From IMG/VR virus record IMGVR_UViG_3300044712_001454, positions 1 through 34,143 of that record: a stretch of 34,143 bases of DNA. One strand, written 5' to 3'. This document shows, piece after piece, positions 1,165 to 17,491 of this stretch. The notes beneath the pieces are model-generated. The model searched no databases. It was not told the DNA's origin and saw nothing but the letters and a program-made list of their open reading frames with translations. This DNA comes from a virus. Position 1 is the first letter of the stretch. Every line of letters begins with the position of its first letter. The position numbers and the translations under genes are program-made.

Positions 1165-1214
1165 GAGCGGCTGACACCGCTCTGATCTGTTCGCCGGCGC
1201 TACCCAGCGCCGGC
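1165..1214. repeat. Two adjacent hairpins between polX-like gene and methyltransferase
   Basis: A perfect 9-bp inverted repeat (GCCGGCGCT at 1193-1201, loop ACCC, AGCGCCGGC at 1206-1214) overlaps the stop codon of the polX-like gene. Just beside it is a 6-bp hairpin (GAGCGG at 1165-1170, CCGCTC at 1177-1182). No T-run follows either. They sit in the 131-bp gap at 1069-1199, the largest in the early operon, and could weaken read-through into, or stabilise message upstream of, the methyltransferase. Confidence 0.45.
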
Positions 1215-1724
1215 CCGTACACTCGTGATCTCGCGGTCCTCCGGTTTGATCCAGGCCAGGCCCAGGGCCTTGAAGACGGCCTCCTCGGTGGCGCTGGCGA
1301 TGACACTGCCGTGCTCAACGACGCCACGATAGGGATTCCAATGGAGGCCTCTGCCTTTGGCGCGCGCGGCGAGGGAGATGTTGAAGTCTTTGGAGCCGGT
1401 GCGGCAAATGAGGAGCGTGCCGAAGTTGCTGGGCTCAGCGAAGAGATCCTTGCCTGGCTCATCGGCGAAGAAAATGTCGATCTGGACGCCCTTGACCTCG
1501 AACAACAGGTTGACCTGGCCATCCTCCAGGAGGCGCGGCGCCCAGGAGAGACACCGGTCGCGGATGTAGCGGCGCTTGCCAGGCAGCGGCTCGATGACCA
1601 GGTCGATGTCGCCAACCTCCGGCCGGCGCCGCCGGATGCTCCCGGCGATCTCGATCTTCCCGCAGAAGACACGCAAAGACTCAACGACCTTCACGGCCTT
1701 TTGCTCTGCTGATGCGAGGTCCAT
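1200..1724 (-). CDS. Stand-alone DNA polymerase X-type nucleotidyltransferase
   Basis: About 174 residues resembling only the palm and thumb of family-X DNA polymerases. Numbered from the upstream ATG at 1730, the signature is AGS at 29-31, GDID with metal ligands D41 and D43, and the third ligand D85 in the strand QIDIFF. The C terminus has the RAKGRGL and SATEEAVFKALGL segments seen in the Pol X thumb. The 8-kDa lyase domain, fingers and the PHP exonuclease of bacterial PolX are all absent. GGAGG lies only 1 base before the first ATG but 7 bases before a second ATG two codons on, so 1724 is the likelier start. A gap-filling or terminal nucleotide-adding role is inferred; the fold assignment is firm. 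Confidence 0.8.
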   Translation of the reverse strand: MDLASAEQKAVKVVESLRVFCGKIEIAGSIRRRRPEVGDIDLVIEPLPGKRRYIRDRCLSWAPRLLEDGQVNLLFEVKGVQIDIFFADEPGKDLFAEPSNFGTLLICRTGSKDFNISLAARAKGRGLHWNPYRGVVEHGSVIASATEEAVFKALGLAWIKPEDREITSVRAGAG

Positions 1725-1726
1725 CG

Positions 1727-2413
1727 TCATGCCTCCAGTTGTGCCACGGCGGCGGGAGCCGGGACGGATGGGTTGATCTTGACCTTCTTACCTTCGATGT
1801 ACCCGTGGCCGAGCCAGGTGCGTTCGCGGCGCTTGGGTTGCGGAAGAGGCACGGAGACAGTCTCGGGGATGAGCTCGCGCTGACGGCGATCCCGGCGCTC
1901 CTTCGCCTCCACGAGCACGAGGGCCAGCCGACTCTCCTCCAGGAGGATACGATCCTTGCCTTTGTCCAGGCCTTCGTTGATCGCGTAGAAGTAGCCGGCC
2001 AGGAAGTTGCGGCGACGATTCTCGGTGAATCGCCGGCCGTACTCGCGCCGAACCTGAGCCACCGAGCGAGCGCTCTGATCGGCCAAGTACGCGAAGACGT
2101 GCTGTGCGATCGCGATATCCGCCGCCGTCCCGATGAGTTTGACCACGGGGTATGCGACGACGGCATTGACGTTGAAGAAGCGGACGACGACCGTGAGAGC
2201 GAGCCGCTTGTAGAGACTGAGGCGGTATCCGACCTGGCAGGCCTCGGTCACGATCGCGTTCAGGTCCTCACCCAGGTCCAGAGTCTGGACGTCGATCTGA
2301 TGCTTCGCCGCGATCTCGAAGGCGCGGTCCAGGGCGAGCTGGGCCTCGTGTATGTTCGGCGATTTCGAGAGCCGCAGCAGCTTCTTGATCCGGTCGACGA
2401 TGACGGACTCCAT
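1727..2413 (-). CDS. DUF2786-domain protein
   Basis: A 228-residue protein whose N terminus (about residues 8-38) has the DUF2786 pattern: an IKKLLRL helix, then SPNIHEAQLA and a basic helix. The middle is hydrophobic with a basic stretch at about 115-145, and the C terminus is Pro/Lys rich. DUF2786 proteins are common in phages and actinobacteria, but their biochemical role is not established. Start and stop fit the operon: AGGAGGAGG overlaps the stop of the upstream gene, 2 bp away, and the stop overlaps the first ATG of the polX-like gene. It sits among accessory early genes, so a replication or counter-defence role is possible but unsupported. Confidence 0.75.
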   Translation of the reverse strand: MESVIVDRIKKLLRLSKSPNIHEAQLALDRAFEIAAKHQIDVQTLDLGEDLNAIVTEACQVGYRLSLYKRLALTVVVRFFNVNAVVAYPVVKLIGTAADIAIAQHVFAYLADQSARSVAQVRREYGRRFTENRRRNFLAGYFYAINEGLDKGKDRILLEESRLALVLVEAKERRDRRQRELIPETVSVPLPQPKRRERTWLGHGYIEGKKVKINPSVPAPAAVAQLEA

Positions 2414-2687: not shown

Positions 2688-2975
2688 CTACATCCTCCCG
2701 ATGCCAAAGGCTGTGATCCATGCTTCCTCAGTGAATGGTTCGACTTTGACGATGGACCTGGCGAGGGTCTTGAGCATGCCGTTCCGACGAGCGCCGACTT
2801 CCGTCACACCCCGGTAGTGGAACTGCTTCTGGCTCCCATCATGGAACTCCACAGTGACCTCCCAGCCGAAAGCCTTGAACTTTCGGGCTGGCTCGTAGTC
2901 ACCACAGCCTGCTCGGCATATCCTGCCATGCTTCTCGCACAGGGAGATGCTGTCCCCAAGGTGTTTACATTTCAT
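2688..2975 (-). CDS. Small protein with N-terminal cysteine cluster
   Basis: Ninety-five residues. The first 24 hold four cysteines (C3, C13, C20, C24) and two histidines, suggesting a small zinc site. The rest (EVTVEFHDGSQKQFHYRGV and a following helix) resembles a compact beta-alpha domain. No family is recognised. The start ATG overlaps the stop of the ASCH gene as ATGA, indicating translational coupling. It belongs to a run of small Cys-containing early proteins (2688-3836), a pattern common among phage takeover or counter-defence proteins, but no specific activity can be claimed. Confidence 0.7.
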   Translation of the reverse strand: MKCKHLGDSISLCEKHGRICRAGCGDYEPARKFKAFGWEVTVEFHDGSQKQFHYRGVTEVGARRNGMLKTLARSIVKVEPFTEEAWITAFGIGRM

Positions 2976-3364
2976 GCTTCCGCCTTAGAGCTGAAGATGT
3001 TGTCGGGGACTGTGAAGAAGCCGAGCGAGCCCTTGCAGGGGGTGAATGGAATGGGCTGGGCCTCGTCCAGGACGAAGCCGAACGGCCCGCAGAACCATTC
3101 GCGATCGTGCTGCCGCACGCAGTCCAGCAGCACGGCCTCGCCGACGATGCCACCGCGATCGAAGTCGTGGAACGGCGGCAAGTCGATCGTGGTGAACCCT
3201 GCCATGAACAGCCTGCAGGCGTCGTACTCTGAGCGCGTCATTCCCTTGCTGGCGTGGATGAGGAAACGGCCACGGACGCGCGTCGGCCATTCGCGGTTCT
3301 CGATGTTCTTCCACCCGTTCGCGATCAGCCAGGCCCACGGCTGTCTGATGCTCAACGCTCTCAC
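2972..3364 (-). CDS. ASCH-domain protein
   Basis: A 130-residue protein that is essentially one ASCH domain (PUA-like fold). It opens with LSIRQPWAWLI, followed by the typical K..ENREWPT strand and RGRFLIHASKG loop (residues 4-41). ASCH domains bind RNA and some members hydrolyse modified nucleosides such as N4-acetylcytidine; many phages carry one. Which activity applies here is unknown. It starts with GTG overlapping the stop of the zinc protein upstream (GTGA). An RNA-binding or nucleoside-processing role in takeover of the host is an inference. Confidence 0.85.
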   Translation of the reverse strand: MRALSIRQPWAWLIANGWKNIENREWPTRVRGRFLIHASKGMTRSEYDACRLFMAGFTTIDLPPFHDFDRGGIVGEAVLLDCVRQHDREWFCGPFGFVLDEAQPIPFTPCKGSLGFFTVPDNIFSSKAEA

Positions 3365-5398: not shown

Positions 5399-6514
5399 CT
5401 ACCGCGCGCCAGGCATCGACCGCATCTTCTCGACGTAGGCGACCGCCTTTTCGAAGTGATGCCAGGTGACCTTCGTGCTCGCCTTCGTGGCCATCTCGAC
5501 CGCGTCGTCGAGCCGGGTGAAGTAGACGGCCAGGCCGTTGTTCTTCACGATGTGCAGCATCGTTTCCTCGGCCGTTCCCTCCGCAGGACTCAGGCCGTAG
5601 TGCTTGGCGATCAGATCCAGGTCCGACCGGGGCGGCATGTCCGGGATCTGGATCTCGTAGAGACCGCGCCGGCGGAGCTGCTTGAGGTACTGCCAGAAGG
5701 CCCCCTCCGCCAATTCATCCCGGAACACGTTCGTGCCGCAGAGCACCATGCCGCACTTCGTCTGGTCATGGATGTAGCGCAGCACGTCCAGGCAGCGCAT
5801 CACCGACCCGCGTTGGTACGTGGTGAACACGCGATGGATCTCGTCCACCAGGAGCAGCTTCGAATCGTCCAGGGCCGCGATCACGTCGTCGATCAGCTTC
5901 TCGTAGCAGGTCCCGCTCGACACGTGGAGCGCCTTGGCGATCGTCCGCGTCATCAGCTGCACGCCCGCCGAGGGCGGCATCTCGACATAGGTCGTCGCGC
6001 CGTGGTTGTTCAGCCGCTGCACGCGCTTGAGGCACTCGCTCTTGCCGCAGTGACTCTCGCCGTAGATGAAGCCCAGCTTCCGGCGCACGCGCACCTTCTG
6101 GCAGATCCAGTCGATCCGGGACCACACCGAGGTCTCGACGAACAGGTCGTCCGTCATGTGCGCCCGCGCTTCGAAGAGCGCCTTCCATTTCTCAACCTTC
6201 TTGCACACCCCATCCAGCTCGACGCGCTCCTGCGTCTTGGGGTTGATATACTTGTCGTGCCAGACCCGGTACCACGTGCTCTGCGAGACCCCGCTCATCC
6301 TCTCCAGCTCGGCCCAGGACATCTGCTTGTCCCGCGCCACCTGGAACGCCCACCGGATCAGCGTCTTCTGCTTCTCGGGCAGATGCTCGGTCGACTTGGT
6401 GACCGTGTTCCCCCCGATGTTGATCTGGTTGGTGCCGGCGCATTCCCGCGCCACATCCTCCAGCCGCTCCTCGCCCGCCGCATCCTCTGCCACGCTCACG
6501 CCTTCATCCGCCAT
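5399..6514 (-). CDS. B: MuB-type transposition target ATPase
   Basis: A 371-residue AAA+ ATPase expected to coat target DNA and activate the transposase. An N-terminal helix-turn-helix (about 46-90, MSWAELERMSGVSQSTWYRV) precedes the ATPase domain with Walker A GESHCGKS at 152-159 and Walker B LLLVDEIH at 220-227. The segment VLCGTNVF follows, where AAA_22 proteins have sensor 1. MuB has the same HTH-then-ATPase plan but is shorter (312 aa); the extra residues are at the N terminus. Strong AAGGAGG site 5-6 bases before ATG. It follows transposase by 18 bp, as in Mu-type A-B pairs. Confidence 0.92.
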   Translation of the reverse strand: MADEGVSVAEDAAGEERLEDVARECAGTNQINIGGNTVTKSTEHLPEKQKTLIRWAFQVARDKQMSWAELERMSGVSQSTWYRVWHDKYINPKTQERVELDGVCKKVEKWKALFEARAHMTDDLFVETSVWSRIDWICQKVRVRRKLGFIYGESHCGKSECLKRVQRLNNHGATTYVEMPPSAGVQLMTRTIAKALHVSSGTCYEKLIDDVIAALDDSKLLLVDEIHRVFTTYQRGSVMRCLDVLRYIHDQTKCGMVLCGTNVFRDELAEGAFWQYLKQLRRRGLYEIQIPDMPPRSDLDLIAKHYGLSPAEGTAEETMLHIVKNNGLAVYFTRLDDAVEMATKASTKVTWHHFEKAVAYVEKMRSMPGAR

Positions 6515-6532: not shown

Positions 6533-8548
6533 TTACAGTTCGCTCAGTTCCTCCATCGAGATTGCATAGGACGCCTCGCGCGCCGGCTTTGGCTCCAGCC
6601 GCGCCGGAGCCTGGGCGCCTGCCAGCGCCTCCTTCGGATCGCCCTTCGCCAGCTTCCGCATCCGCCGCTCAAAGGAGATCTCCTCGGGTAGCACCGGCGC
6701 GCCAGAGATGACCGTGTCGTTCCAGGCCTCATCCTCGACACGCTGCGCCACGGCGGCGGCGTGCCGCGCCCGGAACTCTGCCGTGCGGATCTTCTCCGTG
6801 TGCGCCGCCTCGCCCATCGCGGGGTACAGCTCGTCGGGCTTCGCCTTGCTCGCCGGCACCACGCGGTGGCTCACGCCGATGTACCCCCCGCGCGCGTCGC
6901 ACACGATCATCCGGGACGGATCGAACGGGTTCAGGAACGTCTGGTACCTCTCCTTGTCCCGCAGCACCACCGTGTGCCCGTCCCGGTTCTCCACCCGGCC
7001 CACGAAGAGGAGCGGCTCCGCCGAAAGATCCTCGTCTTCAAACTGGAACGACCCTGCCTCGTTCACCGTGCGCTCCACGGCCAGGTCTTCGCCCAGGATC
7101 GCCGGCAGGCTCCACACCGGCAGCTTCACTAGGTTCTTCCGCCCCGCCTCCCACACCTCGATCGGGGCCAGCTTCCGGCAGCGTGTCAGGCCAGGACGCT
7201 GGATCAGCGTCGCCACCGCGTCGCGCTTCTCGGGGGCCAGCATGTCCAGGGATTCCGCCGGCAGCCACCGCTTGTCGCGCTGGTCAAGCCGGTACTCCTG
7301 TGTGATCAGCCCGGCCGCCTCGAACCCCTCCAGGTCGTGATCCGTCCGCGCGTTGATCAGCCGGTAGATCGAGTCCAGGATCTCGTGGAACTGGTGGAAG
7401 TGGATGAACGGGAACCTGAGCAGCGCCACCTTCTCTGGCGGCAGCCTCTGCGCCGCCTTGAGCAGCAGCTTGTTCACGCGCTGCCGGCCATGCAACTCCT
7501 CGGGCGAGTGATCGCGGTTGAGCCCCATCTGTCCAGGCAGCGCCGCCGTCACGTTGTGCACCAGCGAGTGGTGCGATTCGTATGCCGCCTTCAGCCGGAA
7601 GTTGCCTTTGCCACGCCCCTCGTACCACCCGTGCAATGCTGGTGCACCCTCGATGCCGCTGCGCTCCACCGTGATCGCGCCGGCCGTCATGTCGAACAGC
7701 AGCTTCTCGATCGCCTCGGAGATCGCTGCCGTTCCCCACTCGACAACCAACGTTGTCCCGGCATGGCGATACCCGAACTGGGTCAGCACATACGCCAGCA
7801 GAAACCGCATGTCGCGCGCGCGCAGCATCTGCTTCGCGCCATCGTCGCCATCCAGGATCGGCTTGAGGCCATAGGCGAACTTGCAGCCCGAGAAGAGATC
7901 GAACGCCCCCAGCTCCCACGGCCGACGCGCCTCCTTGTTCACCCCCACCAGGTTCGTCAAGAGGTCGTGCGCGAGATCGTCGAACAGGCAATACTGCATC
8001 ACCTCCAGCCCGACCCGAGTCGTCAGCACCTTCTGGCGGTACGTTGCCGCCGCCGATCGCCCGATCCTCGCGGCCGTCAACTCAAACCGGCTCGGCACGT
8101 ACCGCATCAGGTTCCCATAGCTCCAGCCGTCGGGGACGCCATTGACGCTGGCCGGCGGCGGCGTCTTGTAGCCGGGGATCTGGGCATCCGTGAAGTGCCA
8201 CGAGTTGATCAGCTTCGCGTGAGCCTGTTTGCAGTTGCGCTGATTCTCCTCGCAGAGCCCCTTCCAGTGCGCGATGAACGCGGCGGGCAGCTTGTCCTTC
8301 GCGCCAACCTTCGCCCAGTTCACCGCGCCGCGCCAGCCGTGCTTCCGGATCGCCACCACCTTGTTGCGCACCGTCGCCATTGACACGCCGAACTGCTCGC
8401 GCAGCGCCCGGTAGGCCGCCATCTTCCCGCCCTGCACCGTGCCGGCCAGGATCGGCTCAACCGCCGTGATCCACTGGTACGCCTCGCTCCGCACCTTGTC
8501 CGGGAGCACTGCGAATGCCGCATCACTGTTGCAGGCCAGGGTTTCCAT
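6533..8548 (-). CDS. A: MuA-type DDE transposase
   Basis: A 671-residue transposase predicted to bind the phage ends and carry out DNA cleavage and strand transfer for replication and integration. It has an N-terminal HTH region (about 23-80), an RNase H-like core (about 180-330) and a Mu-transposase C-terminal beta-barrel (about 465-560), close to MuA's 663 aa. Candidate catalytic residues are D190 or D191 in LFDDLAHD, E270 in LVVEWGTAAI at the place of MuA D336, and E323 in KAAYESHH at the place of MuA E392. An Asp-to-Glu change at the second position is notable. GGAGG lies 5 bases before ATG, inside the end of the upstream ORF. The last 40 residues are short helices likely to contact B. 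Confidence 0.93.
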   Translation of the reverse strand: METLACNSDAAFAVLPDKVRSEAYQWITAVEPILAGTVQGGKMAAYRALREQFGVSMATVRNKVVAIRKHGWRGAVNWAKVGAKDKLPAAFIAHWKGLCEENQRNCKQAHAKLINSWHFTDAQIPGYKTPPPASVNGVPDGWSYGNLMRYVPSRFELTAARIGRSAAATYRQKVLTTRVGLEVMQYCLFDDLAHDLLTNLVGVNKEARRPWELGAFDLFSGCKFAYGLKPILDGDDGAKQMLRARDMRFLLAYVLTQFGYRHAGTTLVVEWGTAAISEAIEKLLFDMTAGAITVERSGIEGAPALHGWYEGRGKGNFRLKAAYESHHSLVHNVTAALPGQMGLNRDHSPEELHGRQRVNKLLLKAAQRLPPEKVALLRFPFIHFHQFHEILDSIYRLINARTDHDLEGFEAAGLITQEYRLDQRDKRWLPAESLDMLAPEKRDAVATLIQRPGLTRCRKLAPIEVWEAGRKNLVKLPVWSLPAILGEDLAVERTVNEAGSFQFEDEDLSAEPLLFVGRVENRDGHTVVLRDKERYQTFLNPFDPSRMIVCDARGGYIGVSHRVVPASKAKPDELYPAMGEAAHTEKIRTAEFRARHAAAVAQRVEDEAWNDTVISGAPVLPEEISFERRMRKLAKGDPKEALAGAQAPARLEPKPAREASYAISMEELSEL

Positions 8549-9827: not shown

Positions 9828-10157
9828 TTAGACACGCCTCGTCCGATCGTTCAACAGCCGCACAACACTCTCCCGCGTCACGCGCTTGCAGATCTTCTTT
9901 GGGGGATTCGCCGGGTCGATCGAGCTGGCGATCGCGCGGGCCTCCAGGACGCCCTCGTCGATCCAGTTGCGCACCTGGGAGTTGCTCACCGCGAAGATCG
10001 TGGCGCACTCATCCAACCTGAACCACTGCTTCAGGTCCGGGAGCTTTCCTAGTTCCACAGCCGAGACCTTCGGGGGATTCACCGCTAACTCAAGTTGCAC
10101 GGCCTTGCGGATGACTTCAGCGGGAGGTGTTACGGAGGAGAGTCTTGTGGCTTTCAT
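9828..10157 (-). CDS. Helix-turn-helix (MerR/excisionase-like) protein
   Basis: A 109-residue protein with a MerR/Xis-type HTH at about 45-75: LKQWFRLDECATIF, then VSNSQVRNWIDEGVLEA, a pattern of one helix, a turn and a recognition helix followed by a wing with KKICKRVTRESVVRLL. It overlaps the stop of the RHH gene by ATGA, so the two are translated together. It could serve as the Ner-like early regulator, controlling the divergent promoters or assisting transposase; that is an inference from place and fold. Confidence 0.75.
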   Translation of the reverse strand: MKATRLSSVTPPAEVIRKAVQLELAVNPPKVSAVELGKLPDLKQWFRLDECATIFAVSNSQVRNWIDEGVLEARAIASSIDPANPPKKICKRVTRESVVRLLNDRTRRV

Positions 10158-10351
10158 GATGGGACCACCGTTTCAGCGCGCGCCCGTATCTTGATGTACC
10201 CGGATTCGATCTCGGCCAGCTGGTTGATGAGCGCCAGTTTGATAACGTCTGAACGGTGAATCCCCAGCCGCTTGGCTGCGACGATGATCCGATTGCGGGT
10301 CTCAGCATCGAGTCGAATCGGAAGTGGATTCGAAGCGGCTCCAATCTTCAT
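10154..10351 (-). CDS. Ribbon-helix-helix regulator, leftward
   Basis: A 65-residue RHH (Arc/CopG-like) protein: beta strand NPLPIRLD, helix AETRNRIIVAAKRLG, turn and second helix RSDVIKLALINQLAEIE. It heads the early operon. It is paralogous to the divergent gene at 10444 (PLPIRLD/PIPVRLT, AAKRLGIHRSDVIKLAL/AAQRMGLPNRTAVIKLCL). Only a weak AGG precedes the ATG, and the predicted -10 box ends about 7 bases before it, so the message may be leaderless. RHH dimers bind short palindromes, and one lies directly upstream. It probably represses its own promoter. Confidence 0.82.
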   Translation of the reverse strand: MKIGAASNPLPIRLDAETRNRIIVAAKRLGIHRSDVIKLALINQLAEIESGYIKIRARAETVVPS

Positions 10352-10358
10352 GCCTACG

Positions 10359-10387
10359 TGTATACCAAACGGTATACGCTAGCGCAA
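10359..10387 (-). promoter_or_regulatory. Candidate leftward early promoter
   Basis: On the minus strand TTGCGC (10382-10387) and TATACA (10359-10364) are separated by 17 bp, a fair sigma-70 match. The predicted start point falls close to the ATG of the leftward RHH gene. The perfect palindrome 10360-10377 covers the -10 box and spacer, so bound repressor would block polymerase. Confidence 0.5.
10360..10377. promoter_or_regulatory. Palindromic operator between divergent RHH genes
   Basis: GTATACC at 10360-10366 and GGTATAC at 10371-10377 form a perfect inverted repeat around AAAC. A possible half-site, TTATAC, recurs at 10429-10434, overlapping a possible -10 (TATACG, with an upstream TG) for the rightward gene. 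RHH proteins such as Arc, Mnt and CopG bind sites of this size. It is the only strong palindrome in the 92-bp divergent region. Confidence 0.65.
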
Positions 10388-10443
10388 CAACAAAACGCCA
10401 TTTTGTGGTTTCGTCGGGCGGGCTCTTGTTATACGATAGGGGC

Positions 10444-10740
10444 GTGTCTGAAACGAAACCGATACCTGTTAGGCTCACTCCGGCAATGCTGAGGCGCCTG
10501 GAAGTAGCAGCCCAACGAATGGGGCTTCCAAATCGAACAGCCGTCATCAAGCTCTGCCTGTTGTTGTACCTCGATCTGCTGGAAGGCAACGACTACCACA
10601 TTGCTGGGGTTACCTCAGAGCGCATTTCAGCACTTCTCCATCATGAGGATCAGCGGACCTACCGCTATACAGAGGCAAAGAGAACGAACGGCACCCGCTG
10701 TGCCAATGGGACCCGTAACGGAAGGAAGAAGAGCCCATGA
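10444..10740 (+). CDS. Ribbon-helix-helix regulator, rightward
   Basis: A 98-residue RHH protein: strand PIPVRLT, helix PAMLRRLEVAAQRMG, then RTAVIKLCLLLYLDLLEG, matching the leftward RHH protein across the whole domain. A basic C-terminal tail (RTNGTRCANGTRNGRKKSP) is extra. The frame is open to an ATG at 10324, but that would overlap the leftward gene and contain the operator; GTG at 10444 gives the correct RHH start. There is no well-spaced Shine-Dalgarno site, so translation may be leaderless. The pair of divergent RHH paralogues recalls Arc/Mnt of P22 in design. One is likely the maintenance repressor. Confidence 0.7.
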   Translation: MSETKPIPVRLTPAMLRRLEVAAQRMGLPNRTAVIKLCLLLYLDLLEGNDYHIAGVTSERISALLHHEDQRTYRYTEAKRTNGTRCANGTRNGRKKSP

Positions 10741-11066
10741 GCGTGATCCACTTCAACTGCAGTTCCTGTCAGCATCCGCTCGAAGCCGATAAGGCGATGG
10801 TAGGGTCGCTCGTTGACTGTCCGAGTTGCGGCATCCCGCTCGAAGTCCCCAGTGCTGCACAGGTCGTCGCGCGCAAGAGTCTTGAGACCAAAGTGGCCTA
10901 TGATGCTTCCACCAAATGCACGAACGATCTTCTGCGAACCCTGAACAGCGAGATGGTGGACGTGAAGCGGATGATCAGGTTGTTCTACGTCGTCTTCGCG
11001 ACGCAGCTCATCGTGTCATTCGTTCTCTTTGCCATCGGCGTTGCCATGTGGATCTTGCGCTCGTAG
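10737..11066 (+). CDS. Zinc-ribbon membrane protein
   Basis: A 109-residue protein with an N-terminal zinc ribbon (C8/C11 and C28/C31, CSSC...CPSC), a linker helix (about 50-80) and one C-terminal membrane segment (about 82-106, LFYVVFATQLIVSFVLFAIGV). ATGA overlap with the RHH gene ties the two together, so it would be made whenever that regulator is. If the regulator is the prophage repressor, this may be a lysogenic-conversion or superinfection-exclusion protein. No named family. Confidence 0.7.
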   Translation: MSVIHFNCSSCQHPLEADKAMVGSLVDCPSCGIPLEVPSAAQVVARKSLETKVAYDASTKCTNDLLRTLNSEMVDVKRMIRLFYVVFATQLIVSFVLFAIGVAMWILRS

Positions 11067-12600: not shown

Positions 12601-14264
12601 CTGCCCCGATCAAACAGTGGAAGCGCCGAGAGTACGAGAAGCACGCCATGGTGGCCGCCCGCCAGACGCGCATCATGTACTTATTCTGGACCCGGCGCGG
12701 CCGCAAGAGCACGACGCTTGGCTCGATGGCCTTCGACGCGATGTCCTCCGCTCCTGGGCAATCGGTCATCGCCGCATCGGCCTCGCTCCTCGTCGGCTCC
12801 GAGCTGGTGAGCATGACGCTCTCGGCCACCGAGCAGGCCATCAAGATCCAGCAGGAGGCCGCCGCGCTCAAGATGGCGCTGGAGAACTCCGCCCAGGGGA
12901 GCGACGTGAACCTGGTGGCCGCCAACTCCGAGACCGGCAAATCCTACCGCTCCCTCACCGACGACGACTACGCCGACCTCTACAAGTCGAAGCGCCTGGA
13001 GTTCCGCCTCTACTTCGACAAGACCCGATATTCGAGACTGCTCGTCATCGCCCCGAATCCGGCAACGGCTCGCGGGTGGGGCGGCTGGGTGTTCCGCGAC
13101 GAGCAGCAATTCACACACCCCGAGCTGGAGCGCGAGCTCCAGCTCGCCACCGATCCCATCATCGACACCGACCCGACCTTCCGCCTCATCTACGCCAGCA
13201 ACCTCTGCGGCGACGATCGCCACCCCGGCTACGAGATGACGCTCCCCAAGGACGTCACCACCTTCACGCCGGACCCCAAGGGCCACTTCTACATCTCGCA
13301 GACCGGCATCCTCGTTCACCGCGTGGATCTCGCCGACGCCTACGCCGCCGGCCACACGCTCTTCGACAAGAAGACCGGCGAGCCCATGCCCCTGGAGAAG
13401 GCCCTGGCCGGCATGAGCCCGAACGCCCGCAAGTGGAACTACATGCTCGTGCACGAGGCGGGCGGCACGGCGGCAGTCGACGCCCTCGCGCTCCACTCCG
13501 CCCAGCAGCGCGGCGTGGGCAAGTGCGCCGCCATCTACTGCGAGACCGACCGCGACTTCCTGCGCGCCTGCACCTGGCTTGCCGAGCACCTGCAGCCGGG
13601 CCAGCAGACGGGCATGGGCTTCGATGTCGCCACCACCAGCGGCGGCAAGAGCAATCCATCCAGCGTCACGATCACACAGCGCGCGGGCCTGGAGTACGTC
13701 AGCCCCCTCAACGTCCTCTGGAAGACGCGAGATCCCAAGCTCGCCCGCGAACGGCTCACCTTCCTTCTGCGCACCTGCAAGGACTCCAAGGCGCCCGTCC
13801 GGCGCCTTGCCATCGATGCCAGCAGCGAGCGCTACTTCGCCGAGGAGACCCGCCAGGAACTGGCGGGCATCGTCCCTGTCGAACTGGTCATCAACGGCAG
13901 CACGGTTGACCCCCTTCCGGCGGGCTATGAGGGTGCGGTCAACTACAAGACGTACCTCGGCGACCTCTACGTGGCGCAGATCAACGACAACCGGTGCATC
14001 CTCCCGCCGGAGCCGTACTTCAAGAAGGATCACCGCAGCGTCGTCAAGGATCGCGGCTCCTACGACTGCGAGGTCGACGCCGATGGCGGCCACGGCGACA
14101 CCTTCGACAGCGGCAAGCTCTCCTTCTACGCCCTGGACTCGAACGCCGCGTGCGCCGTCTCGAAACGTAAATGGGGTGGCGGCGGCGATCTCAACCACCC
14201 GGAAGTCCACGCCCCGTCGCGAGGCCGGACCGTTCCGCAGCGTGCCAGGAGGATGTGCGCATGA
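12597..14264 (+). CDS. Large terminase subunit, Mu gp28-like
   Basis: A 555-residue packaging ATPase/nuclease. Walker A-like RRGRKSTT lies at 33-40 and Walker B-like VFRDE at 165-169. The C-terminal nuclease has candidate metal ligands D343 (GFDVATT), D407 (LAIDASS) and D501 (GHGDTFDS). The N-terminal W-T-R-R-G-R-K-S form is typical of Mu-type large terminases and differs from the classical GxxxxGK(S/T). GTG start overlapping the small terminase stop. It would cut and pump phage DNA, with host flanks, into the prohead through the portal encoded next. Confidence 0.9.
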   Translation: MTAPIKQWKRREYEKHAMVAARQTRIMYLFWTRRGRKSTTLGSMAFDAMSSAPGQSVIAASASLLVGSELVSMTLSATEQAIKIQQEAAALKMALENSAQGSDVNLVAANSETGKSYRSLTDDDYADLYKSKRLEFRLYFDKTRYSRLLVIAPNPATARGWGGWVFRDEQQFTHPELERELQLATDPIIDTDPTFRLIYASNLCGDDRHPGYEMTLPKDVTTFTPDPKGHFYISQTGILVHRVDLADAYAAGHTLFDKKTGEPMPLEKALAGMSPNARKWNYMLVHEAGGTAAVDALALHSAQQRGVGKCAAIYCETDRDFLRACTWLAEHLQPGQQTGMGFDVATTSGGKSNPSSVTITQRAGLEYVSPLNVLWKTRDPKLARERLTFLLRTCKDSKAPVRRLAIDASSERYFAEETRQELAGIVPVELVINGSTVDPLPAGYEGAVNYKTYLGDLYVAQINDNRCILPPEPYFKKDHRSVVKDRGSYDCEVDADGGHGDTFDSGKLSFYALDSNAACAVSKRKWGGGGDLNHPEVHAPSRGRTVPQRARRMCA

Positions 14265-15847
14265 GCCGGCCTCGCAAGACAAAGCCAACGGCCTCGGGTG
14301 TCAGCCGCGTTGCCGACGCGATTCGCTTCGCGCCGAATCCCCTGCCGCAGCTCACCCCTGAGAACCTTGCCGCCTACCTCGACAGCTTCTCGCGCGGCTA
14401 CCTGCGCGACACGGCCATCCTGTGGCACCATATCCAGTGGCGCGACGATCGTGTTGGCGCCGACTGCAACAAGCGCCACAAGGCGGTTCCGCGTTACGGC
14501 TACAGGCTCGTCGCCGCACCAGGACGCAAGGCGGACGATCCGGCCGTGCGGCGGCACATGGAGGCGATCGGGTTCGCCCTGGACAACCTCAGCGCGTCGG
14601 ACGCTCTCGATCCCTCTTCGACGGGTGGCATCACCACGCTCACGCGGCAAATGATGCGCGCCATCGGGTTCCAGTGGCAGGTCCACGAGATCGTCTGGCA
14701 GCCCAGGCCCGATGGGCTCACGCTCCAGACGATCGCCATGCCGCTGTGGTGGTTCGAGCGCACCACAGGGAGTCTGCGCTATCTGCCGCAGGACCTCATG
14801 ATCGAAGGCGTCCCGCTGGAAGAGGACGGCTGGCTCATCACGAAGGGCGACGGCCTCATGGCGCCCACGTCGCTGCTCTACCTCCTCAAGCGCATGGCCC
14901 TCACGGATTGGGCTCTCTACAACGGCCGCGTGGGTCCCGGCATCCATGGCACCACGAAGGCCGCTCCGGACAGCGACGAGTGGCGCACGCTCGAAGATGC
15001 CGTCGACAATTTCAGCTTCGACCTCAAGATGGTCACGCAAGACGGCGTCAGCATCAACCCGATCGAGATGGCGCTCAAGGGCACGCTCCCCTGGCCGCAG
15101 ATGTACGAGGCCATGGTCAAGGCCATCACCGTACTCTGGCGCGGCGGCAACCTCATGAGCGACTCCGGCGGCGGCCCGAACCAGAGTGGGGTCACTGTTC
15201 AGAGCACCGAGGCCATCATCCTGGAACAGGACGATGCCACGATGATCTCCGAGGCGCTGAACGAGTACATCATCACGCCGCTCATCCGCTACCGTTTCGG
15301 AGAGGAGCCGCTGGCGTGGGTCGAGTGGAAGACGGGCATCAAGGCCGACGTCAAGGCCGAGATGGAGAAGGACCGTTTCCTCGCCGAGCGCGGCTGGCAG
15401 TTCACGCTCGAAGACCTCGCCCAGCGTTACGAGCGCACGCCGCCCCAACCTGGGCAAAGGGTTCTCACGCCGCCGGCAGCCGCCGTGCCTTCAGTCATGC
15501 CGGCCGCGAACGCTCTCATCACGAGCCAGCACCTCGCTTCCGCAGGTCAGGCCGCGCGCGTGGAGGCTGTCCGCAGCGATCTCGTCGAGGAGGCCATCAC
15601 CGAGACCCTGAAGGGGCGTGCGCAGATGTTCGAGAAGTGGCTCTCGAACTTGGAAGCGTCGTTGCCTGAACGAGCCACGCAGTCGGAGTACATCGCCCTT
15701 GTGGAAGCCGCCATCAAGGAGATGCCTGCCGAACTGCTCACCCAGGAGAACATCGACCGCCTCGCCCAGATCGGCGAAGGCCTCCTCGGCGCCTGCGTCG
15801 TCAACGCGCTGGAACAGAACGCCGGCAAGCTCCAGGAGGCAACGTGA
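14261..15847 (+). CDS. DUF935 portal protein, Mu gp29-like
   Basis: A 528-residue portal expected to form the dodecameric ring at the head vertex. Family features: NPLPQLTPENLAAYLDSFSRG near the N terminus, the RDTAILWHHIQWRDDRVGAD segment (about 48-67), the GFQWQVHEIVW strand (about 136-146) and the WRGGNLMSD/STEAIILEQDD region (about 294-328). AGGAGG lies 8 bases before the ATG, which overlaps the terminase stop. Typical length for DUF935 portals. Confidence 0.92.
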   Translation: MSRPRKTKPTASGVSRVADAIRFAPNPLPQLTPENLAAYLDSFSRGYLRDTAILWHHIQWRDDRVGADCNKRHKAVPRYGYRLVAAPGRKADDPAVRRHMEAIGFALDNLSASDALDPSSTGGITTLTRQMMRAIGFQWQVHEIVWQPRPDGLTLQTIAMPLWWFERTTGSLRYLPQDLMIEGVPLEEDGWLITKGDGLMAPTSLLYLLKRMALTDWALYNGRVGPGIHGTTKAAPDSDEWRTLEDAVDNFSFDLKMVTQDGVSINPIEMALKGTLPWPQMYEAMVKAITVLWRGGNLMSDSGGGPNQSGVTVQSTEAIILEQDDATMISEALNEYIITPLIRYRFGEEPLAWVEWKTGIKADVKAEMEKDRFLAERGWQFTLEDLAQRYERTPPQPGQRVLTPPAAAVPSVMPAANALITSQHLASAGQAARVEAVRSDLVEEAITETLKGRAQMFEKWLSNLEASLPERATQSEYIALVEAAIKEMPAELLTQENIDRLAQIGEGLLGACVVNALEQNAGKLQEAT

Positions 15848-16365: not shown

Positions 16366-16718
16366 TGTACGAGACGGCCATCAACTGTCTGGTCGAGCGC
16401 GTCCACCTGCGTGAGATCCAGGAGAAGGAGCACGTCCAGGAGGGACACCACTTCGACGCCCAGGAGTGCCGCCGCCAGATCCAGGACCTCCAGGCCGCGA
16501 TCCAGGCCTTGCAGACTCCCCCGTCTGCTTCCGAAACCCAGAACCCGGAACCCGAAACCGCCGCCGGCCCGTCCGGCGGCCCAGGATGCCCCACAACGGG
16601 CCGGCCGGAAACGCGCCCGAATGCCCGACCGGATACTCCCCAATCGATTTGCAAGGGCTTACCGGCCCGTTGCAAGGGCAAATCTCGCAAGCACCACAAT
16701 GGAGGCCAGGAATCATGA
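16365..16718 (+). CDS. Coiled-coil protein with Pro-rich basic tail
   Basis: About 117 residues. The first 50 form a charged helix (CLVERVHLREIQEKEHVQEG and a QIQDLQAAIQALQ heptad-like stretch). The rest is a disordered tail rich in Pro, Gly and Arg, ending in a Lys/His-rich segment. Overlaps both neighbours by a few bases. No family recognised; it could be a chaperone or partner of the flanking peptidase-fold proteins. Confidence 0.6.
   Translation: MYETAINCLVERVHLREIQEKEHVQEGHHFDAQECRRQIQDLQAAIQALQTPPSASETQNPEPETAAGPSGGPGCPTTGRPETRPNARPDTPQSICKGLPARCKGKSRKHHNGGQES
16646..16684. repeat. Nested direct and inverted repeat
   Basis: TTGCAAGGG occurs at 16649-16657 and 16670-16678; GATTTGC at 16646-16652 is inverted as GCAAATC at 16678-16684. 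The element lies within the variable C-terminal tail of the coiled-coil gene, so it may be a small insertion that extended the reading frame, or simple slippage. Confidence 0.4.
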
Positions 16719-17491
16719 CCAGACGCTACGGCTGGGTGCCCGATCTGCCCGATCACCGCGACCTCTACTACCGGTACGTCCCGAAGGGATTTCAACCCCT
16801 GCAACTGCCCCCCAAGGTGGATCTCCGGGCGCAGTGTCCGCCCGTCTATGACCAGGGCGATCTCGGGAGCTGCACCGCCAACGCCATCGGCGCGGCGCAT
16901 CAGTTCGAGCAGATCCGCCAGAAGCAGACGCGCGGATCGTTCGTGCCCTCCCGGCTCTTCATCTACTACAACGAGCGTGTTGTCCTGGGCACGGTCGACG
17001 AGGACTCCGGCGCCATGCTCCGCGACGGCATCAAGAGCGTCGTGCGTCAGGGCGTGTGCCCGGAGCCGGAGTGGCCCTATGTCATCTCCCGGTTCACCAG
17101 CAAGCCCTCGATCAAGGCATACCGCCACGCGCTCGACCACCAGGTGCTCAAGTACCAGCGGCTTCGCCAGACCGTCGGCGACTTCGAAACCTGCATCGCG
17201 GCTGGGCATCCCTTCGTCTTCGGGTTCAGCGTCTACGAGAGCTTCGAGACGCCGTCGGTCGCAAAGGCCGCCGTCGTTCCGATGCCGGGGCCAGGTGAGC
17301 GCCTCCTGGGCGGCCACGCCGTGCTCGCCGTGGGCTACGACCGCCCGGCCCGTCAGATCATCGTCCGGAACTCCTGGGGCGAGGCCTGGGGCGAGAAGGG
17401 CCACTGCTACATGCCCTACGACTACCTTGCCAACTCCGATCTCGCCGCCGATTTCTGGACCATCACGTTGGTCGAGGAGGATGCGGCATGA
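16715..17491 (+). CDS. Papain-like (C1A) cysteine peptidase
   Basis: A 258-residue papain-family enzyme without a signal peptide or long propeptide. The catalytic set is complete: oxyanion-helper Q47 in YDQGDLGSC, nucleophile C53, His201 in GGHAVLAVGYD, and Asn219 in VRNSWGEAWGEKG. The N terminus (RRYGWVPDLPDHRDLYY) is typical of bacterial and viral C1A members that begin just before the mature domain. ATGA overlap with the upstream gene and a close link to the protease/scaffold gene downstream. Peptidoglycan cross-link cleavage at lysis, virion protein maturation and host-protein degradation are all possible. It is rare in Mu-like phages to my knowledge. Confidence 0.88.
   Translation: MTRRYGWVPDLPDHRDLYYRYVPKGFQPLQLPPKVDLRAQCPPVYDQGDLGSCTANAIGAAHQFEQIRQKQTRGSFVPSRLFIYYNERVVLGTVDEDSGAMLRDGIKSVVRQGVCPEPEWPYVISRFTSKPSIKAYRHALDHQVLKYQRLRQTVGDFETCIAAGHPFVFGFSVYESFETPSVAKAAVVPMPGPGERLLGGHAVLAVGYDRPARQIIVRNSWGEAWGEKGHCYMPYDYLANSDLAADFWTITLVEEDAA

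Follow-up and report, generated by a model that had tools for sequence, protein, structure and literature searches.

A ribbon-helix-helix paralogue pair as the probable c/ner-type immunity switch of a Mu-like transposable phage

In the lysis/lysogeny switches of textbooks, both partners are HTH proteins, and the ribbon-helix-helix (RHH) fold is unusual in this role. Mu-like and B3-like transposable phages have the c/ner or repc/ner arrangement with back-to-back promoters (PMC9936078), and the operators of CI/MOR in TP901-1 lie between the divergent regulator genes (PMC7250872). In P22, Arc and Mnt of immI control antirepressor synthesis, and C2 is a repressor apart from them (PMC6550527, PMC2629481). 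A search of the open-access literature, with subscription journals outside its scope, found neither a main switch made of two RHH proteins nor an RHH-S24 repressor.

The stretch of DNA analysed here, referred to as the window, is a 34,143-bp IMG/VR virus record, and homology-based gene assignment identifies the virus as a transposable, Mu-like phage. From about 10351 its early genes are read leftward, its packaging, head and tail genes being read rightward, and two genes designated E and R sit where both arms diverge. The features of this region and of the two arms are as follows.

5399..6514, minus strand: MuB-like transposition ATPase
6533..8548, minus strand: MuA-like transposase (phrog_310 match)
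9828..10157, minus strand: HTH_17/excisionase-like early gene, 73% identical in the relative L003
10154..10351, minus strand: E, small RHH protein of 65 aa with ATG start, heading the early (transposition) operon (ORF list, E/R alignment, AlphaFold)
10352-10443: intergenic gap between E and R, 92 bp
10444..10740, plus strand: R, RHH protein of 98 aa with GTG start and basic C-terminal tail, positional homologue of the HTH/S24 repressors of sister phages and of the L034 RHH-S24 fusion
10737..11066, plus strand: zinc ribbon (LysW-like, 1.6e-6) with C-terminal membrane segment, overlapping the stop of R
14171-15847, plus strand: Mu-type portal protein

As in Mu c/ner and B3-like repc/ner, a putative repressor gene thus diverges from a small regulator gene heading an early operon that leads to MuA and MuB; the stop of E and the start of the early gene after it overlap. 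The preliminary description had called the locus unlike the c/ner of Mu, but the locus shares its position, divergent orientation and operon order with c/ner and CI/Cro and differs in fold. From the sequence comparisons below, we propose with a probability of roughly 0.77 that E and R serve this Mu-like transposable phage as an immunity switch of the c/ner (CI/Cro) type, rebuilt from RHH paralogues.

The HTH_17/excisionase-like gene is placed between E and MuA, and many relatives have similar small HTH genes before MuA; its product might provide the DNA-binding part that is seemingly missing from the N-terminus of the window MuA. The gene at 10737..11066 is probably the second gene of the R operon and a candidate lysogeny-operon gene, e.g., for superinfection exclusion. 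Zinc-ribbon/membrane genes downstream of the repressor were also seen in L003, L009, L017, L042 and L047, irrespective of repressor class. Elsewhere, the window carries a D12 adenine methyltransferase (283-1068), a DNA polymerase beta thumb (9.8e-16) with a partial palm domain (1200-1730, minus strand), which is odd in a Mu-like phage, an ASCH-domain protein in the early arm (2972-3364, minus strand; 4e-6) and a papain-family (C1) peptidase amid the head genes (16466-17491, plus strand; 8.1e-13).

Both open reading frames and the 92-bp control region between them, claimed in the preliminary description together with a full-domain alignment of the divergent pair, were confirmed. E and R are identical in 18 of 44 residues (41%) across the whole beta-alpha-alpha domain (z = 12.4 against shuffles), and a search within the window's own record matched them at E = 1.2e-5. 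Against Pfam RHH_1, R reached E = 0.0015 and 18.9 bits, below the curated cut-off of 20.5, which is diagnostic and not a structural definition and which several relatives pass; E matched no RHH model in Pfam. A profile built from E/R relatives matched RHH proteins in the PDB, with PutA as the best match (4e-5) and CopG at 0.03. AlphaFold monomers of E and R revealed strand-helix-helix cores with pLDDT values of 92-97, and the E model superposed on the structures of CopG, ORF56, Rv0298 and Arc. Since the R model alone gave weak structure matches, it is kinship in sequence, together with the predicted core, that supports the fold of R. By alignment and modelling, E and R are assigned to the ribbon-helix-helix superfamily (MetJ/Arc/CopG).

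The C-terminal tail of R is basic, with a net charge of +7 in the last 20 residues, and the S24 autocleavage domain is absent from this 98-aa protein. Neither E nor R gave anything above cut-off against HTH families, so that homology to the Mu c or Ner families is absent. That no other repressor of the CI or c type is visible held true for the 30 window proteins scanned, among which there was no HTH_3/S24 protein, bar an HTH at the N-terminus of MuB.

As single queries, E and R found no viral contigs. A tblastn search of 50,697 phage records gave zero matches for MuA, E, R, the R of L011 and TerL, MuB gave just 23-24% matches, to BalMu-1 and a Vibrio phage, and two scans of genome contigs found neither a prophage nor a host. 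The relatives compared are 34 MuA-phage contigs from IMG/VR, of which L003 was obtained first and then, via conserved MuA motifs, nine and a further 24; L003 is the closest, its MuA being 78% identical. In each, the slot was defined as the gene or genes divergent from the E..MuA-MuB operon, and the RHH model was searched against all ORFs; in L034, the model found the E partner and R was then read directly. A divergent RHH pair occupies the slot in 10 of the 34 relatives (L003, L011, L012, L020, L025, L026, L027, L032, L034 and L046). At least 15 of the 34 have a divergent gene of the HTH_3 type and/or with S24 (CI/LexA-type) there instead (L009, L010, L013, L015, L017, L021, L024, L035, L036, L039, L042, L043, L047, L048 and L049), and none of these 15 has an RHH E-gene. 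The counts leave out L028, L029, L033, L040, L041 and L044; L014 and L022 are fragments.

The folds of the two partners thus match (10 and 0 versus 0 and 15), the phages being related and not independent events. Placing the RHH label on the MuA tree requires four changes, of which three are forced by supported branches. Given the slot contents across the relatives and these changes on the tree, RHH pairs and CI-type pairs are seen, at the level of sequence, to substitute for one another in one functional slot. The earlier proposal that an RHH pair occupies the lysis/lysogeny slot gains support from the sister phages with HTH/S24 repressors there.

Comparison with L003 delimited one further feature.

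10142..10734: exchanged cassette, bounded on both sides by DNA homologous to L003

Homology between the window and L003 flanks both sides and is missing exactly across the two RHH genes and the gap; the next early gene is 73% identical and the gene downstream of R 47%. L003 has an RHH pair in the same place, whose sequence likeness to the window pair is no more than the fold gives, and which is kin to the pair of L046, a phage with a MuA only 37% identical. As an alignment pattern, this homology break is that of an exchanged immunity cassette. Comparison of ten pairs gave three unrelated cassette types: the window alone, L003 with L046, and the remainder.

The assignment of roles draws on one relative.

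L034:5868-6506, minus strand: R of L034, fusion of RHH (RHH_1 E = 0.005, below cut-off) and Peptidase_S24 (2.8e-12)

Over residues 100-200 this protein matches LexA structures in an alignment that spans the VAAGEP cleavage sequence, which looks intact, as well as the VKR lysine, and a GRSM serine motif is visible in its sequence. Its RHH part is kin to the R of L032 (z about 22-25), and a linker, (A/S)PxRxGKGG, is common to R of L034, L020 and L032 and poorer in L026. L034 R thus shares the S24 domain with LexA/S24 CI-type repressors, including the VAAGEP, Ser and Lys motifs, but the N-terminal HTH is replaced by RHH, and the R of the window is without S24. Because of this fusion and of gene position, the best reading is that R is the repressor, i.e., the counterpart of c/CI, and E that of Ner/Cro.

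Within the control region, the following elements were predicted.

10359..10387, minus strand: early promoter TTGCGC-17-TATACA (-35 at 10382-10387, -10 at 10359-10364), weak, with 7 of 12 consensus matches and left unreported by a stricter scan
10360..10377: palindrome GTATACC-AAAC-GGTATAC (GTATACCAAACGGTATAC), predicted operator at the early promoter (inverted-repeat scan)
10386..10410: second inverted repeat AACAACAAAA-CGCCA-TTTTGTGGTT, 9 of 10 positions paired, potentially another site
10430..10439: R-proximal partial third copy TATACGATAG (compare TATACGCTAG at 10373-10382), P = 0.11 for the window by itself, reaching significance over 10 phages

The perfect 7-bp inverted repeat that had been reported inside the leftward promoter was recovered over a predicted promoter of weak consensus; the second inverted repeat and the R-proximal copy were not in that report. 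The palindrome lies 8 nt from the ATG of E and overlaps the -10 and spacer of the predicted leftward promoter, and relatives have TTGACT-16/17-TATACA/TATGAT at the equivalent position. Dinucleotide shuffles of the 92 bp gave P = 0.04-0.085 for its best inverted repeat, and the expectation for this genome is 0.16 perfect 7-bp repeats with a loop of at most 8 per 92 bp. Taken singly, the window palindrome is weak evidence, near chance frequency (P about 0.04-0.15), and as the sole evidence for a switch it was rejected. GTATAC occurs just twice in the 34 kb, both times within the palindrome. TATACG within the R-proximal copy may also be the -10 of R. As the predicted -10 elements sit 7-8 nt from the start codons of both E and R, motif position suggests that both mRNAs may be leaderless.

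Whether the partners read the same DNA was approached by comparison within and between phages. E/R likeness within a phage exceeds that of random E/R pairings (P = 0.00025); for the window, the z of E against R is 11-12, and that of either against the RHH proteins of other phages about -1 to 6. At the base-facing strand residues, assigned by hand from the alignment, 12 of 30 within-phage comparisons matched versus 3.8 expected (P = 0.00025), the window E and R having an identical P-P-R, whereas buried strand residues matched in 7 of 30 versus 5.3 expected (P = 0.26). The base-facing signal gave P = 0.003 without the window and P = 0.0007 without L012; without the window, L003 and L046, i.e., for the third cassette type alone, it was P = 0.10.

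In most phages, a phage-specific motif also recurs close to E and to R, namely ATGGGTGTATA in L011, TGGTGTATAG in L012, ACTCAGTTTA in L026, TGGGTATAAT in L046 and GACTTTAA in L020. Sharing of a motif between R-proximal and E-proximal DNA gave a Fisher P of 1.8e-7 with a 30-bp split, which is partly post hoc: the test was first run with a half-split (P = 4e-4) that mis-cut the second site of L046, and was then re-run. Without L012 the value was 5e-6, and -10 elements in common may explain some of the signal. Early-promoter palindromes are significant in L003, L011 and L020 (13+13 bp) and marginal in the window; combined over 11 phages, Fisher P was 0.001, a significant palindrome being absent in 7 of the 11. 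Of the earlier claim that the pair competes for one operator, the shared target is supported, base-facing residues matching within phages as such competition would need, and the single operator is too simple a picture, most relatives having a site near each gene. A contest of the two regulators for common DNA sites is the probable means of deciding between dormancy and growth.

RHH proteins such as Arc, CopG and MetJ are obligate dimers via the strand and helices, and with 41% identity over the domain, E and R might form inactive or altered heterodimers, which would make E an anti-repressor by protein-protein antagonism and not an operator competitor. The greater likeness of within-phage pairs also permits this, but within phages it is the base-facing residues that match and the buried ones that stay at chance, which points to shared DNA reading, and sites repeated beside each gene are compatible with competition in which heterodimers play no part; we consider antagonism of this kind unlikely, though credible. 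It is decidedly improbable that the likeness of E and R reflects mere superfamily membership and that the palindrome arose by chance from an AT-rich promoter sequence. Similar residues do arise by convergence in short domains, and the window palindrome has a P of just 0.04-0.15; however, E/R likeness stands far above that to RHH proteins of other phages, palindromes lie at the same position in L003, L011 and L020, and GTATAC is restricted to the two palindrome arms.

RHH_1 proteins frequently serve as antitoxins or plasmid regulators, and the HTH_17 gene is conserved beside E. The pair might accordingly be accessory autoregulators (antitoxin-, CopG- or relaxosome-like), with lysogeny kept by another protein such as the product of 9828-10157. 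This appears very improbable: no toxin gene adjoins the pair, sister phages hold CI/LexA-type repressors in the slot alongside small HTH_17-like genes, L034 R carries an S24 domain, and the window scan found no other HTH_3/S24 repressor. An immI module of the P22 Arc/Mnt kind was likewise considered and rejected, the antirepressor not being adjacent and the neighbours being HTH_17, zinc-ribbon and transposition genes.

For the preferred c/ner-type switch of E and R, we infer DNA binding, the direction of repression, bistability and lysogeny as follows. R would bind RHH sites over the early -10 and spacer and repress the leftward operon of E, HTH_17, further genes, MuA and MuB, keeping the prophage silent. 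E, the first gene product of the early operon and a paralogue that shares the base-reading strand of R, would bind the sites of R once early transcription is on, shut off R and damp its own operon, like Ner and Cro.

Such a circuit resembles lambda CI/Cro and TP901-1 CI/MOR in its two small DNA-binding regulators from divergent genes, the window operators being predicted; unlike in those HTH pairs, the fold is RHH and the sites are probably short and nested within the -10 region. It likewise differs from the HTH-type Mu c and Ner, both window partners being RHH paralogues and non-homologous to c/Ner. The parallel with Arc/Mnt drawn in the preliminary description is apt for the fold, two RHH repressors lying in one phage immunity region, but not for the role: Arc and Mnt govern the antirepressor beside C2, whereas the window pair fills the principal c/ner slot, without a further repressor being seen.

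A wider and tentative proposal, at a little under even odds, is that bistable phage switches made of RHH pairs recur as a class apart. Repeated intraphage duplication or gene conversion would then keep the partners DNA-matched, cassettes would be swapped with HTH switches among transposable phages, and one lineage would be SOS-controlled via the S24 fusion. In the phages compared, circuit position is conserved and the fold replaced, RHH paralogues appearing repeatedly interchangeable with HTH pairs, which offers a natural series for studying how a two-repressor switch keeps its partners matched to one operator. If functional, L034 R would be an SOS-inducible RHH repressor, and such an RHH-S24 protein would link an Arc-like domain to SOS induction. 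For annotation, the 'missing' repressor in such phages may be an RHH gene of 65-100 aa, often below Pfam cut-offs.
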